A stretch of 64,000 nt of DNA from Streptosporangium brasiliense (GTDB lineage Bacteria > Actinomycetota > Actinomycetes > Streptosporangiales > Streptosporangiaceae): positions 434,001-498,000 of the forward strand of contig NZ_JAUSRB010000001.1 of assembly GCF_030811595.1 (NCBI RefSeq). Reading direction: 5' to 3'. The notes beneath the pieces are model-generated. The model ran no database searches, was not told the DNA's origin, and saw only the letters and a list, made by a program, of their open reading frames with translations. This document shows positions 6,000 to 17,506 of this stretch, piece by piece. Numbering within the stretch: the stretch's first letter is position 1; the number at the start of each line of letters is the position of its first letter. A program made the translations under genes and the position numbers.

Positions 6000-7181
6000 A
6001 TGGGCCGGCTCACCAGGGCTGAGACGCAGGAGCGCAACCGCGCCAGGGTGCTGGCCGCCGCCCAGGAGGAGTTCACCGAGCGCGGCTTCCGCGACGCCAA
6101 GATCGACGCGATCGCCGAGCGCGCCGAGCTCACCCGCGGCGCGGTCTACTCCAACTTCCCCGGCAAACGGGCTCTCTACTTCGCCGTCCTGGCCGACCTC
6201 GCCGAGCGCGCGCCGCGGTCGCCGCACCCGGAGCCGGGCCGCACCGCCCGCGAGGCGCTCGGCGCGTTCGCCCGCGCCTGGGTCGCCGGGCTCCCCCTCG
6301 CCACCGACGAACGGCCCGGCCCGGCCCGGCTCGGCTCGGACCTGATGTCCGAGATCCTGGTGGACGGGCGGACCCGGCTGCCGTTCGCGCAGCTGATGAG
6401 GTTCGACGCGATCCTGCTCGGACTGGCCCTGGAGCGGCTGCGCCCGCCCGGGACGCCCGCCGGCCGCCTGGTGCGCGTGGCCGAGTCCGTGCTCACGACC
6501 CTGCACGGCGCGGGGCAGCTGGCCGCCGCCGCGCCCGGCTTTGTCGAGCCCTTCAACGTCATCGGCGTCTGCGAGCAGCTCGCGGACCTCGACCTGGGCG
6601 ACGCGTGGCAGCCCCCGCACCTCCCCTACGTCCCATTGGCGCGGCCCGCCGACGAGCCGTGGTCCCCGCCGCCCGCCGCGGACGTCATCCGCGGCGGACC
6701 CGCGCGGCTGGCCGACGACGGCGTGGTGGCGGTCCTCGGGCTGCACCGGCTCGAGGCCGTCGAGGAGGCGGTGCGGGCCGCGCCGGCCGGAGCCACGGTC
6801 ACCGCCGTCCTGGTCACCGGCGACCCCGCCGAGCTGACGCCGCTGGCCCGGCTGGCCGTCGCCGGCCTCTGCGCCTGCCTGCGCCAGGCCTTCCCGCCCA
6901 CGGCGTGGCCGCCCCTCCAGGTGGTCCACGACGGCTCCGGCGCCCTCGCCGCGGCCGCCGGTGTGCCCGCCGTCAGCGACGGGACCGAGGCCGCCGTCCG
7001 CGTCGAGGCGGGCCGGATCGTCGCCCGGGCCGACGGCCGCGGCGCGTGCCACGCGGCCGCGTCGGCCGGCGGGGCCGTACCGGCCGAAGAGACCCGAAAA
7101 ACGGACATACTTCGTAAAGGCGGGCCCGACCTGGTCACGGACGCGGCAGACGGTCCAGTACGGCGTGCGCCTCGGACATGA
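6000..7181 (+). CDS. TetR-family regulator with an added C-terminal domain
   Basis: A 393-residue protein, about twice the usual TetR length. Residues 1-200 form a standard TetR: the helix-turn-helix includes AIAERAELTRGAVYSNFPGK, followed by a helical ligand domain. After a Pro-rich linker comes roughly 130 residues of alternating strand/helix sequence, including VVHDGSGALAAAAGVP and AAVRVEAGRIVARADGRG, which resemble the C-terminal part of AhpC/redoxin folds. No clear peroxidatic CxxC is seen. The fusion suggests a sensor or redox-linked regulator. ATG 6000 follows GAGGGGG. Its 3' end overlaps the convergent ipdC end by 47 bp. Target unknown. Confidence 0.8.
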   Translation: MGRLTRAETQERNRARVLAAAQEEFTERGFRDAKIDAIAERAELTRGAVYSNFPGKRALYFAVLADLAERAPRSPHPEPGRTAREALGAFARAWVAGLPLATDERPGPARLGSDLMSEILVDGRTRLPFAQLMRFDAILLGLALERLRPPGTPAGRLVRVAESVLTTLHGAGQLAAAAPGFVEPFNVIGVCEQLADLDLGDAWQPPHLPYVPLARPADEPWSPPPAADVIRGGPARLADDGVVAVLGLHRLEAVEEAVRAAPAGATVTAVLVTGDPAELTPLARLAVAGLCACLRQAFPPTAWPPLQVVHDGSGALAAAAGVPAVSDGTEAAVRVEAGRIVARADGRGACHAAASAGGAVPAEETRKTDILRKGGPDLVTDAADGPVRRAPRT

Positions 7182-12670: not shown

Positions 12671-13504
12671 ATGAGCGTTTCCGCGGCTTATGTGACTTTC
12701 GCAGACCCGGACGGGGGCGACGACGAGAAGGAGCTCGCTCTCGCCGCCTGGGCCGAGGCCGGGATCGCCGGGCGGATCGTGCGCTGGGACGACCCCGAGG
12801 CCGACTGGGCCGCCTTTGACGCCGTCGTGGTCCGCTCCGCCTGGGACTACGTGGACCGGCGGGCGGAGTTCCTCGACTGGGCCCGCCGCGTCGAGTCCGT
12901 CACCCGGCTGCTCAACCCGGCCGCCGTGCTTGAGCGCAACACCGACAAGACCTACCTGCGGGACCTGAAGGCGCCGGCCATCCCCACCTACTGGGTCGGG
13001 CCGGGCGAGGAGGCCGACTTCCCGGTCCTCGACGAGTATGTGGTCAAGCCCACGGTGTCGGCCGGGGCCCGCGACACGATCAGGACCGGCGACCGCGGGG
13101 AGGCCGGGGCCCACGCCGCCCGGCTGGTCGCCGAGGGGCGGACCGCGATGATCCAGCCCTATCTGGACATGGTCGAGACCGAGGGGGAGACCTCGCTGCT
13201 CTACTTCGGCGGCCGGTTCAGCCACGCCATCCGGCGCAACCCGATGCTGGCCGGCAACGCCACCGGGCCGGGGCGCGGGAACGGCCACGGTGAGCTCCGC
13301 ACTCCCGGGGGCGACCAGCTCGCCCTGGCCGAGCAGGTGCTGGCCGAGTTCCCCGACGTGCTCTACGCCCGGGTGGACCTGGTCCGCCTGCCCGACGGCA
13401 GCCCGGTCCTCATCGAGCTGGAGCTCACCGAGCCCTACCTGTTCCTGCGCTACGCGCCCGAGGCCGCGGCCAACCTGGCCCGCGCGCTGGGCGCGGCGCT
13501 CTGA
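12671..13504 (+). CDS. ATP-grasp domain protein of unknown substrate
   Basis: A 277-residue ATP-grasp enzyme, RimK/glutathione-synthetase-like. Visible features are the early RSAWDY segment, the nucleotide-binding lysine in YVVKPTVSAGARDT, and the metal-binding acidic residues near the end in LIELELTEPYLFLRY. Such proteins form amide or ester bonds using ATP; nothing nearby names the substrate. It stands alone, with GAGGGG before the ATG, and is followed by a strong hairpin facing the MauE-like gene. Confidence 0.75.
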   Translation: MSVSAAYVTFADPDGGDDEKELALAAWAEAGIAGRIVRWDDPEADWAAFDAVVVRSAWDYVDRRAEFLDWARRVESVTRLLNPAAVLERNTDKTYLRDLKAPAIPTYWVGPGEEADFPVLDEYVVKPTVSAGARDTIRTGDRGEAGAHAARLVAEGRTAMIQPYLDMVETEGETSLLYFGGRFSHAIRRNPMLAGNATGPGRGNGHGELRTPGGDQLALAEQVLAEFPDVLYARVDLVRLPDGSPVLIELELTEPYLFLRYAPEAAANLARALGAAL

Positions 13505-13539: not shown

Positions 13540-14316
13540 TCAGGTGAGCGCGGGCTCGTCGACGAGGGCGGCGCGGACGGCCGACGGGTCGCCGCCGGAG
13601 AGCGGGACGGCGAAGACCGCCGTCCGCCCGCCGGCGGCGTAGACCACGAACCGCAGGCCGTCCTCGTCCCACACGTCCTGGACGTCGGAGGTGAGCCGCG
13701 CCGACGTCGAGCAGTAGGCGGGGCTGAGGTAGAGCAGGCGCAGGGTGACCTCCAGCGGGATCTCCTGCGGTGCGGGCGGGGCGAGCGGTCTGCGCAGCCG
13801 TACGAGCAGCCGGCGCAGGGGCATCAGCCAGTGGCGGTCCAGCTCCGCCGAGAGCCCCAGCAGGACGGCGATCTCCACCAGGCCCAGGACCGCGAGCGGC
13901 GGGTCCAGCGGGTACGGCCGCGCCCAGAGCGCCGCGACGCCCATGACGAGCAGGAGCCCCGCCCGGGCGAAGGCGCGCCGGTCCGCCGGGCGGGAGTGCG
14001 TGCCCAGGCAACCGCAGGACGCGGCGGGCGCGGCCAGGCGCGCATAGGTGAGATAGGCGAGGAATCCCGCGGAGAGCGCGGCGCCGGCCGCGCCCTCCGC
14101 GGGCAGGACCGGCGGCAGCAGCAGCGCGGCCGCCACCGCGAGCTCCAGCACCCCGACGAGCCGGAGCGCGGGGACCGCGCGCGCCGAGCCGACCAGCCGG
14201 GCCAGCGCGCTCTGCCCGGCCCGCGCCCGCATCTTCCGGCTGAGCAGTTTCACCAGCGCGGCCCAGAGCAGGAAGGAGCCGATCACATACGGCTGCAGCG
14301 CGGCGATCCCATGCAT
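13540..14316 (-). CDS. MauE/DoxX-like redox-associated membrane protein with cytosolic tail
   Basis: A 258-residue protein with about four membrane segments in residues 8-165 and a Cys pair C101-x-C103 in the SCGCLG motif that marks MauE-type proteins. MauE is needed for disulfide formation in the methylamine dehydrogenase light chain. After the membrane part is a tail of about 80 residues ending in alternating strands, which is unusual. It is the last gene of a coupled operon with a Cys-rich protein and a Tat substrate, so it probably handles their disulfides. Its ribosome site AGGAG (14323-14327) overlaps the previous gene's TAG stop. Confidence 0.8.
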   Translation of the reverse strand: MHGIAALQPYVIGSFLLWAALVKLLSRKMRARAGQSALARLVGSARAVPALRLVGVLELAVAAALLLPPVLPAEGAAGAALSAGFLAYLTYARLAAPAASCGCLGTHSRPADRRAFARAGLLLVMGVAALWARPYPLDPPLAVLGLVEIAVLLGLSAELDRHWLMPLRRLLVRLRRPLAPPAPQEIPLEVTLRLLYLSPAYCSTSARLTSDVQDVWDEDGLRFVVYAAGGRTAVFAVPLSGGDPSAVRAALVDEPALT

Positions 14317-14325
14317 CTGTCGCTC

Positions 14326-14922
14326 CTAATGAGGGGAGAAGACGGTGGCGATGTCGACTTCGTTGGTGTCGGGCCGCCAGGCGCCCAGGACCTGCACGTG
14401 CTGGCTCACCCGCAGCAGCGACAGGTCGGCGGAGGGCGGCGAGTCGGAGTAGACGGCGACCGATCTGCCCGGCACGCGGTGGCAGAGGATCTCCTGCCCC
14501 TTGTGGTCCAGGTGGATCTTCTCGCTGGTGATGTTCCTGATGTGGCCCTTGATGTTGACGATGTTGAGCCACACCGCCTCGGCGGCGAGCACCCCGTCGG
14601 GCATCCGGACGCCCCGGGCGTAGAGCCCGTCACCGGGTCTGGCCTGGTCGAAGGCGACGGGACCGAGCTTCCACAGGCTCGTGCCGTCGACGACCCTGAT
14701 GCGGTGGAAGACCATGTTCGATCCCAGGACGAAGAGCGTGTTGTCCTTGATGGAACGGATCCGTCCCTCGGCGAAGTTGGGGTCGGGGGTGCCGGGCTCG
14801 ATCTCGGGTGCCACGGCGCCGAAGGCCGCCTCCGGGCCGAGCGATCCCAGCGCGGTCGCGGCGACGACGCCGGCTCCGCCGCCGAGCAGGGCGGACTTGA
14901 GCAGTTGCCTTCTGCTGGTCAT
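14326..14922 (-). CDS. Tat-exported protein of unknown function (DUF5666-like strands)
   Basis: A 198-residue protein. The N-terminus SRRQLLKSALLGGGAG is a twin-arginine signal. The mature part is strand-rich with repeated short barrels (GRIRSIKDNTLFVLG; GVLAAEAVWL; HVQVLGAWRPD), resembling DUF5666-style OB-like folds. One cysteine is seen in the mature part (ILCHRV). Gene two of the cassette: its AGGAG ribosome site (14931-14935) overlaps the TAG stop of the Cys-rich gene, so translation is coupled. It may act as a scaffold, or carry the leaderless Cys-rich protein out; both are inference. Confidence 0.7.
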   Translation of the reverse strand: MTSRRQLLKSALLGGGAGVVAATALGSLGPEAAFGAVAPEIEPGTPDPNFAEGRIRSIKDNTLFVLGSNMVFHRIRVVDGTSLWKLGPVAFDQARPGDGLYARGVRMPDGVLAAEAVWLNIVNIKGHIRNITSEKIHLDHKGQEILCHRVPGRSVAVYSDSPPSADLSLLRVSQHVQVLGAWRPDTNEVDIATVFSPH

Positions 14923-14933
14923 CGGACCGCCTC

Positions 14934-15383
14934 CTAGGGGACCGAGATCTCGCACGGCCGCAGGCCGGTCGAGAGGCTGGCGATCCGGCTGTAGGCGGCC
15001 GGGGTCAGGTCGATCAGCCGGTTGCTCGCGCAGGTCGCGCCGCAGCAGCTGCGCTCGCCGCAGAACAGGTCCGTCTGCGGTCCGCAGTCGGCGATGGAGG
15101 TGACGACGGCGGCGCCGCTGCACAGCGCCGTGATGCGGTGGTTGAAACCGCAGGTCCTGCGGGACAGCGAGACGCCGCAGCTGTCCGGCCGGGTGATCGA
15201 CCAGCAGGCGTCGGAGGTGTTGGGCCAGGCGTGTTGCAGGTTCCCGGAGTTGCAGGTGCCGCAGGCTCCCTTACCGGTGCTGCTGCACGGCCCCCAGGCC
15301 GTGCCGCAGCAGAACCAGGAGACTTCTCCTTGGACTGCTGCGAGTAAGTCGACGGGCGGGTCAGTGGGCTGGCTGCGCGCCAT
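14934..15383 (-). CDS. Cysteine-rich protein, possible maturation client of MauE-like partner
   Basis: A 149-residue protein with 15 cysteines (about 10 percent), including paired CC at SWFCCGTAWGPC and RSCCGATC, plus four tryptophans near cysteines. This composition recalls the methylamine dehydrogenase light chain MauA, which has six disulfides and a tryptophan-derived cofactor, but no clear alignment can be claimed. No signal peptide is visible. Start chosen at ATG 15383, seven bases after GGAGG; the ATG at 15389 is too close. A possible sigma-70-like -35 TTGACG (15484-15489, minus strand) lies in the AT-rich leader. First gene of the operon. Confidence 0.72.
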   Translation of the reverse strand: MARSQPTDPPVDLLAAVQGEVSWFCCGTAWGPCSSTGKGACGTCNSGNLQHAWPNTSDACWSITRPDSCGVSLSRRTCGFNHRITALCSGAAVVTSIADCGPQTDLFCGERSCCGATCASNRLIDLTPAAYSRIASLSTGLRPCEISVP

Positions 15384-15529
15384 GCGCATCCTCCTGGGGT
15401 GGGCTCCGACGGTCCCCCGGGTCCGATGGTGCAGCTGTGTGGAAATTTTCTGACTTATCTCATCAAAACATGTAATTAATCTCCGTCAATGCCCGATCCG
15501 GAGCCGGCCGCCAAGTCACCCGAGCCTGA

Positions 15530-16060: not shown

Positions 16061-17506
16061 ATGGCGATATCGCAACGGCCCAGGTCCGCGCTCACCACGC
16101 TTACCTGTGCCCTGACCACGCTGCTGGCCGCATGGGTGACCCCGGCGGTAGCCGACACCGATGCGCACACCGGCGCTACAACGCGGCAGGCCACCACACA
16201 GGCCGCCGCACCCTGCATCCGGCACGGGCAGCACAACTACCCCGTCGACTACTACTGGAAGAACGTGCTCGGCATGAGGCTGGGCAACGGGTCGGTGGCG
16301 GTCACCACCTCCCCCTCCCTGTGGGGCGGGCAGATCGCACCGGGCAGCACCTTCACCCTCACCCTGACGCACCGCACGGCCCGCTGGCCGCTGCTGGTGC
16401 GCACCTACACCACCACCTGGGACCTGTCGTCCCTGCGAGCCAGCGCCGACATCGTCGGCCAGTCCGGGACCGGCGTCATCAACGGCAACACCCTGTCGAT
16501 CACCTCGCCGGGCACCAAGACCGACCCGGCCGCGAAGGTCATCACCTTCCGGGTCAGGCCGGGCACCGTCGGGCGCAGCATGACCATCCGGCCGACCGGG
16601 ATCAGCAGCGTCATCGCCTTCCCGGGCCAGCTCGGGAACAACGCCCCCGCCCCGCCGATCCACATCGTCAGCGGCCAGTCCATCTCGCCCACCAACGCCG
16701 TCGACGACACCGCCACCACCACGGAGGGCACCGCCGTCACCGTGCCCGTGCTGGCCAACGACACCGCGACCGCGCCGACGATCACCAGCGTCACCCAGCC
16801 CCGCCACGGCGCCGCGACGATCTCCGGCAACACCGTCGTCTACACGCCCGACCCGGGCCTGGGCGGCACCGACACCTTCGCCTACACCATCACCACCGCC
16901 TGCGGAAGTTCCACCGCCACGGTCACCGTCACCGTCACCTGCACCCGCGAGCCCATCAACCTGGTCAACGGCAGCTTCGAGACACCCGCCGTGCGCCGGA
17001 TCGACTGGAACATCCCCGACGCCTCCACCAACCCCGCCGTCGGCTGGCACACCACCGCCACCGACAACAAGCTGGAGTTCTGGCCCAGCGGCGCGGGCGG
17101 GGTCCCGGCAGCCGACGGCCGGCAGTTCGCCGAACTCAACGCCAACCAGGTCTCCACGCTCTACCAGGACGTCCCCACCGTTCCCGGCACCCAGATGACC
17201 TGGTCGCTGTATCACCGAGGCCGTCTGGGGACCGACGTGATGCGGGTTCTCATCGGCGCCCCGGGCGCACCCGTGCCCCAGACTCCGACCGGAGCCTCCT
17301 CCCCGGACATCTCCGACGGCAACACCGCCTGGGGCCACTACAGCGGCACCTACGTCGTGCCCGCCGGGCAGACCGTCACCCGGTTCGCCTTCAAGTCGGT
17401 ATCGGCCGCCGGAGGCCGCCCGACGTTCGGCAACTTCCTGGACGGCGTGGTCTTCCAGACACCGCCCTGCCGGCCCATGACCGAAAGCGCCGCGAAGGCC
17501 GGCTGA
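16061..17506 (+). CDS. Secreted surface protein with Ig-like repeat domain
   Basis: A 481-residue protein with a Sec signal (hydrophobic segment and A-x-A site near residue 31). The middle holds a cadherin/VCBS-type Ig-like domain: [20 protein letters not shown] followed by [15 protein letters not shown]. The C-terminal part (NGSFETPAV through [14 protein letters not shown]) resembles jelly-roll or carbohydrate-binding modules. No LPXTG anchor or membrane segment is seen, so it is probably released. Function is likely adhesion or polymer binding. A long hairpin follows. Codon use is Thr/ACC-rich compared with neighbours. Confidence 0.72.

Follow-up and report, generated by a model that had tools for sequence, protein, structure and literature searches.

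Organization of the three-gene locus

The window analyzed here is a stretch of 64,000 nucleotides from Streptosporangium brasiliense (assembly GCF_030811595.1, contig NZ_JAUSRB010000001.1, positions 434,001 to 498,000). We found three closely spaced genes on its minus strand. Gene 1 (14934..15383) encodes a protein of 149 amino acids with 15 cysteines that, from its sequence, homologs and fold, is predicted to be a leaderless, Cys-rich double-psi beta-barrel (DPBB) protein. Gene 2 (14326..14922, minus strand) encodes a twin-arginine (Tat) substrate of 198 amino acids, modelled as two OB-like barrels and a candidate escort. Gene 3 (13540..14316, minus strand) encodes a MauE-type membrane protein of 258 amino acids with a CxC motif at residues 101-103 and an extra C-terminal domain.

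The stop codon of gene 1 lies within the ribosome site of gene 2 (TAGGAGG, 14930..14936, minus strand; exact in 16 of 80 relatives), and the stop codon of gene 2 lies within the ribosome site of gene 3 (TAGGAG, 14323..14328, minus strand; exact in 23 of 80 relatives). A preliminary description of this DNA had placed three genes here, with each TAG stop inside the next ribosome site and with a leaderless 15-cysteine protein encoded first; all of this was confirmed, and both junctions read TAGGAG. Across the 80 relatives, the gap between the first two genes was 1-16 nt in all 79 loci with a rule-placed start.

For gene 1, the ATG at 15383 is the most likely start, because the AGGAGG ribosome site (15390..15395, minus strand) precedes it with a spacing of 6 nt and because the earlier in-frame ATG at 15389, which abuts AGGAGG, reads ACG in 7 of 9 aligned relatives. 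Further upstream lies an element containing TTGACG..., TTACATG and GTCAGgAAaTTT (15443..15490, minus strand) that was conserved in 10 of 10 aligned sequences. It is a possible promoter or operator; a generic promoter scan returned no consensus promoter at this position.

The cassette is flanked by two plus-strand genes. One (12671-13504) encodes an ATP-grasp-type protein that scored 236.8 bits with the D-cycloserine synthetase model NF058666, under the cut-off of 360. The other (16061-17506), which is divergent from the cassette, encodes a protein whose N-terminus resembles a signal and which contains a Big_9 immunoglobulin-like domain.

The cassette is conserved and patchily distributed

We searched a genome collection with a profile of the Cys-rich family and obtained 126 loci, 80 of which were kept for synteny counts. 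These came from Streptosporangium, Nonomuraea, Sphaerisporangium, Thermoactinospora, Kribbella, and many Micromonosporaceae and relatives. The Tat-substrate gene was located directly 3' of the gene 1 homolog in all 80 fetched relatives, and the mauE gene came next in 79; the sequence of the remaining locus, L019, ends at base 7148, before mauE. This search for the three-gene pattern in other genomes had been proposed in the preliminary description as a check, and the genes were found to be conserved together. A neighbour-family comparison of 37 diverse loci recovered all cassette genes in all 37, and no other flanking family was common to more than 7 of them (ORFs of at least 130 amino acids within about 6 kb).

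The distribution of the cassette is patchy. Among 100 relatives of the window's genome, the Cys protein matched 13 loci, comprising 10 full-length split genes, one remnant (genome G002) and two fused proteins described below. MauE was recognised weakly (E about 1e-3) in one of the 10 full-length split loci, L010. An independent search of the 100 related genomes with the Tat profile identified exactly the same 11 genomes with a split Cys gene or remnant, and no other. G002 has intact tat and mauE genes and a Cys gene reduced to its last ~36 codons (L108:3048-3155). Seven of 16 same-genus genomes, the window's own included, have the Tat gene, and in a class-wide draw of 296 genomes the Tat and Cys profiles matched the same 2, again including the window's own. 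The co-conservation of the three genes across loci and genomes excludes chance linkage, and the cassette is real and conserved.

Gene 1 encodes a predicted leaderless double-psi beta-barrel

No signal peptide was found in the gene 1 protein. The frame of gene 1 homologs opens just 10 codons before a WFCC motif in three loci, and the chosen start is 8-12 codons ahead of this motif in 46 of 46 Kribbella and Micromonosporales-type loci. The frames and starts lie so few codons before WFCC that the product appears to be leaderless. A Pfam scan of the gene 1 protein at E up to 1 matched DPBB_1 alone, and DPBB_1 also matched 51 of 53 homologs. We therefore predict a leaderless barrel of the expansin/loosenin/RlpA fold, present as a single domain from which the second (D2) domain of expansins is missing. 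Thirteen cysteines were kept in all 53 homologs and a 14th in 52. Two aspartates, D101 and D127, were also kept in all 53; by their motif they may correspond to expansin D71 and D82. Their invariance suggests an extracellular polymer, possibly a polysaccharide, as the target of the barrel.

Leaderless Cys-rich proteins often bind metals, and Tat cargoes often carry cofactors. The barrel might accordingly hold a metal or an Fe-S cluster in the cytoplasm, with MauE tuning its thiols and the folded metalloprotein leaving together with the Tat partner. This would fit the CxC...CxxCxxC cluster, which is kept even in a fused paralog that probably has no usable signal (see below). However, the closest folds belong to extracellular DPBB proteins, often disulfide-bonded ones, and the Pfam scan found no metal-protein family match for the gene 1 protein. 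We consider metal binding in place of disulfides to be quite unlikely.

The preliminary description had also pointed to a Trp next to a Cys and had raised the idea of a peptide-derived cofactor. Gene 1 would then be the subunit bearing a Trp-derived quinocofactor, matured in the manner of the Mau system, and a MauE-type protein is indeed present in the cassette. Two tryptophans, W25 and W55, occur in every homolog, and a third, W32, in 52 of 53. W63 does adjoin Cys62 in the window, but it is poorly kept, the commonest residue at this position being F (23 of 53). A match of gene 1 to the methylamine-dehydrogenase light chain was sought at E up to 1 and none was obtained, the protein having the DPBB fold instead. 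Moreover, no MauB-, MauD- or MauG-like family was common to the 37 loci, in agreement with the earlier statement that the set is not a standard mau operon. The DPBB_1 matches and the variability of W63 speak against a peptide- or Trp-derived cofactor, and Mau-like maturation of gene 1 is hardly credible.

Gene 2 encodes a predicted Tat substrate

All 49 aligned gene 2 homologs have an RR pair followed by 20-26 uncharged residues. The motif RRx[LFVIM]L together with a start was found in 79 of 80 loci, and the 80th has RRRLF. The assignment of gene 2 as a twin-arginine substrate thus holds, although the NCBI Tat-signal model TIGR01409 scored the window protein at 12.7 bits, below its cut-off of 16.7. 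With that reservation about the score, genes 1 and 2 have the make-up of a hitchhiker pair, in which one partner carries a Tat signal and the other does not. The structural model of the gene 2 protein (pLDDT 80.5) contains two OB-like barrels, which do not imply a function. DUF5666 reached 13.7 bits in the window protein against a cut-off of 27, and a few gene 2 homologs bear a precomputed PF18914 annotation.

A fused paralog joins the two halves

In two of the 13 Cys loci, a single ORF combines a Tat-protein-like half with a diverged Cys-DPBB half. Profile comparison matched the N-terminal half to the Tat family with a probability of 95.5 and E of 1.6e-8, the RRR motif included, and the C-terminal half to the Cys-DPBB family with a probability of 75 and E of 2.5e-5. 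Among the candidates scored, 666 fused-protein homologs passed. The fused profile matched 59 of the 100 relatives, made up of 57 of 61 same-family genomes and two matches to other-family split Cys genes. The window's own genome also encodes a fused paralog (L107:3450-4403). A MauE that aligned through the extra C-terminal domain adjoins the fused gene in 29 of 30 loci, while none was found beside the fused gene in locus L134.

Of 31 rows, 30 have RR at the N-terminus; the exception is P0270, whose record begins past the motif. The uncharged run that follows spans 7-12 residues (median 8) in the fused proteins, compared with 20-26 in the Tat family, and because this run is short a working Tat signal on the fused paralog is unlikely. 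The hydropathy maxima of the two groups overlap (0.41-1.86 in the fused proteins and 1.46-1.95 in the Tat family). The N-terminal RRRxLAAAALGR, seen at L107, is nearly invariant despite the short hydrophobic stretch. The fused proteins have 9-12 cysteines, and by motif the first aspartate is replaced by A or G in 28 of 31 and the second by E in 28. As judged from these features, a usable Tat signal is not indispensable to the module.

That the two halves occur naturally fused, and that the split genes strictly co-occur, argues for a direct association of the gene 1 and gene 2 proteins. The suggestion in the preliminary description that the Cys-rich protein is carried out through its signal-bearing partner gains support from the same two observations. 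They count against a reading in which the two proteins share a pathway only, gene 2 being an ordinary Tat substrate and gene 1 a cytoplasmic protein served by a MauE at the inner face. The two expansin-type aspartates kept in the barrel, suggestive of an extracellular target, also disfavor it. The lack of a signal in gene 1 and of a usable one in the fused paralog would be expected from such independent fates, as would the retention of gene 2 in G002, where gene 1 is not intact. On balance, we judge it decidedly unlikely that the two proteins go separate ways.

Topology of MauE and the side of oxidation

The gene 3 protein belongs to the MauE family, with 55.4 bits for Pfam PF07291 against a cut-off of 27, and the two CxC cysteines are kept in 79 and 78 of 79 homologs, as expected from the earlier assignment of a MauE-type protein with a CxC. 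Averaged over the 79 homologs, the cassette MauE has five hydrophobic segments, and the mean loop charges are +3.5, -0.6, +2.3 (the CxC loop), -0.3 and +1.8 (after the last segment). These charges favour a topology with the N-terminus outside and with the CxC loop and the C-terminal domain in the cytoplasm, as derived from hydropathy and the positive-inside rule. The number of hydrophobic segments found varied from 4 to 6 among seven compared MauE.

The window's genome encodes five MauE in total. One adjoins a DSBA-type thioredoxin gene, lacks the C-terminal domain and has an ambiguous charge pattern. Two others adjoin thioredoxin-fold and ABC transporter genes; both have a positive CxC loop and lack the C-terminal domain. 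On contig C2 near 3556000, a gene for a 63-amino-acid Cys-rich peptide (L105:2314-2502) precedes a set (L105:2628-5575) of a MauE gene, a thioredoxin-like gene that matches Pfam below the cut-off, and an ABC transporter gene. This unit looks like the RiPP-type MauE candidates of PMC7794033. On the same contig near 1353000, a MauE gene is accompanied by an AhpC/TSA-type thioredoxin-fold gene and an ABC transporter gene (L106:2843-5848), and the filtered ORF list contained no small Cys-rich ORF beside this set.

The role of MauE in methylamine dehydrogenase concerns the disulfides of an exported subunit. By analogy, the barrel might cross by Tat as a hitchhiker in a reduced or part-folded state, and an outward-facing CxC of MauE might form the disulfides there. 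The same synteny and co-occurrence would fit such a scheme, as would the methylamine-dehydrogenase role recounted in PMC7794033 and the own-genome MauE next to a DSBA-type gene. However, the loop charges of the cassette MauE put the CxC inward, no thioredoxin-type partner was common to the cassettes in the 37 loci, and Tat prefers folded cargo. Oxidation on the outside is in our view unlikely.

A proposed hitchhiker unit for the Cys-rich barrel

We propose that the three genes form a dedicated Tat hitchhiker unit. In it, the DPBB protein would first be oxidised by MauE at the membrane and would then be exported by the partner. We put the probability of this reading a little short of even. The Cys barrel would be synthesised without a signal and, in its split form, would bind the gene 2 OB protein, as the fusion and co-occurrence suggest. 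MauE would form the disulfides of the barrel, a role to which its family, its CxC and the cysteine count point, and the complex of barrel and OB protein would cross by Tat on the gene 2 signal. The least certain step is that the CxC faces the cytoplasm and that the disulfides precede export; an inward CxC would imply oxidation ahead of export, an order favoured by the folding control of Tat. Once outside, the DPBB protein may bind or loosen polysaccharide, or serve as a wall, matrix or inhibitor protein. The fused paralog may do a related job intracellularly, as MelD2 does beside the exported MelC2. The complete version, in which a MauE facing the cytoplasm forms as many as seven disulfides, the OB escort exports the finished barrel via Tat and the fused paralog keeps the chemistry inside, is more doubtful.

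The preliminary description had seen in the set a compact system to oxidise, export or mature a Cys-rich redox protein. Co-occurrence, the fused paralog and the finding that no other family is widely shared among the 37 loci fit such a unit, but its "redox protein" label for gene 1 is not needed, the predicted fold being expansin/loosenin-like.

According to PMC6708511, one scFv was not exported by Tat unless disulfides could form in the cytoplasm. Work cited there describes, by its title, Tat export without prior disulfides, which counts against the proposal. The Aeropyrum VKOR, the subject of a title cited in PMC12453122, sets a precedent for a membrane enzyme that forms disulfides in two compartments. 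Further points against the hitchhiker reading are the retention of tat and mauE in G002 without an intact gene 1, the Tat model score under cut-off, the signal-less fused paralog, the weak MauE of L010 and the missing MauE of L134.

Comparison with known systems

We are not aware of any bacterial disulfide machine that works on the cytoplasmic side and is dedicated to a single Tat cargo. The cassette protein shares the DPBB fold and, by motif, two groove aspartates with expansin D1, loosenin, RlpA and the Streptomyces papain inhibitor. Those proteins are secreted with their own signals, whereas the protein described here is leaderless, has 14 conserved cysteines and lacks a D2 domain. Leaderless expansin-like proteins of this kind would escape signal-peptide surveys.

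The MauE/MauD maturation of methylamine dehydrogenase and the Cys-rich RiPP candidates with MauE (PMC7794033) likewise place MauE beside a Cys-rich product, with a proposed disulfide role. Those systems act on subunit or peptide precursors, with MauD in one candidate family, whereas the cassette pairs a predicted folded DPBB protein with a Tat partner, and its MauE bears an additional C-terminal domain. For MauE, which has been known chiefly for its part in methylamine metabolism, the cassette would provide an assayable function in actinomycetes.

The Streptomyces tyrosinase pair MelC1/MelC2, with its intracellular counterpart MelD1/MelD2, is described in PMC2758597. There too, a signal-less protein and a Tat-signal partner are encoded in one operon, and a paralogous version that lacks the Tat signal is retained in the cell. 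The two architectures of the present module, with and without a usable signal, may be compared with MelC (exported) and MelD (intracellular). The cargo of MelC1 is a copper enzyme, and no MauE is known to take part; the signal-less paralog here is a single fused protein. The E. coli PaoABC and HybOC complexes are similar in that one Tat-signal subunit ferries signal-less subunits, but they are cofactor enzymes with proofreading chaperones (PMC4273604), in contrast to the small Cys-rich barrel with MauE found here. It is plausible that the cassette is of the Tat hitchhiker type, distinguished by its unusual cargo and by a MauE of its own.

How a disulfide-rich Tat cargo acquires its bonds ahead of export is a question for biology as well as for practice, and engineers answer it with foreign oxidases (PMC6350376). 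A natural three-gene cassette with a fused paralog as a built-in comparison makes this question directly testable. In the CyDisCo plus Tat scheme engineered in E. coli, as outlined in the same source, disulfides form in the cytoplasm before Tat export, as they would here if the inward reading holds. That scheme relies on yeast Erv1p and human PDI, whereas the cassette is natural, has one membrane protein and would export a hitchhiking cargo. CyDisCo plus Tat, as engineered, may thus have a natural counterpart in the cassette.
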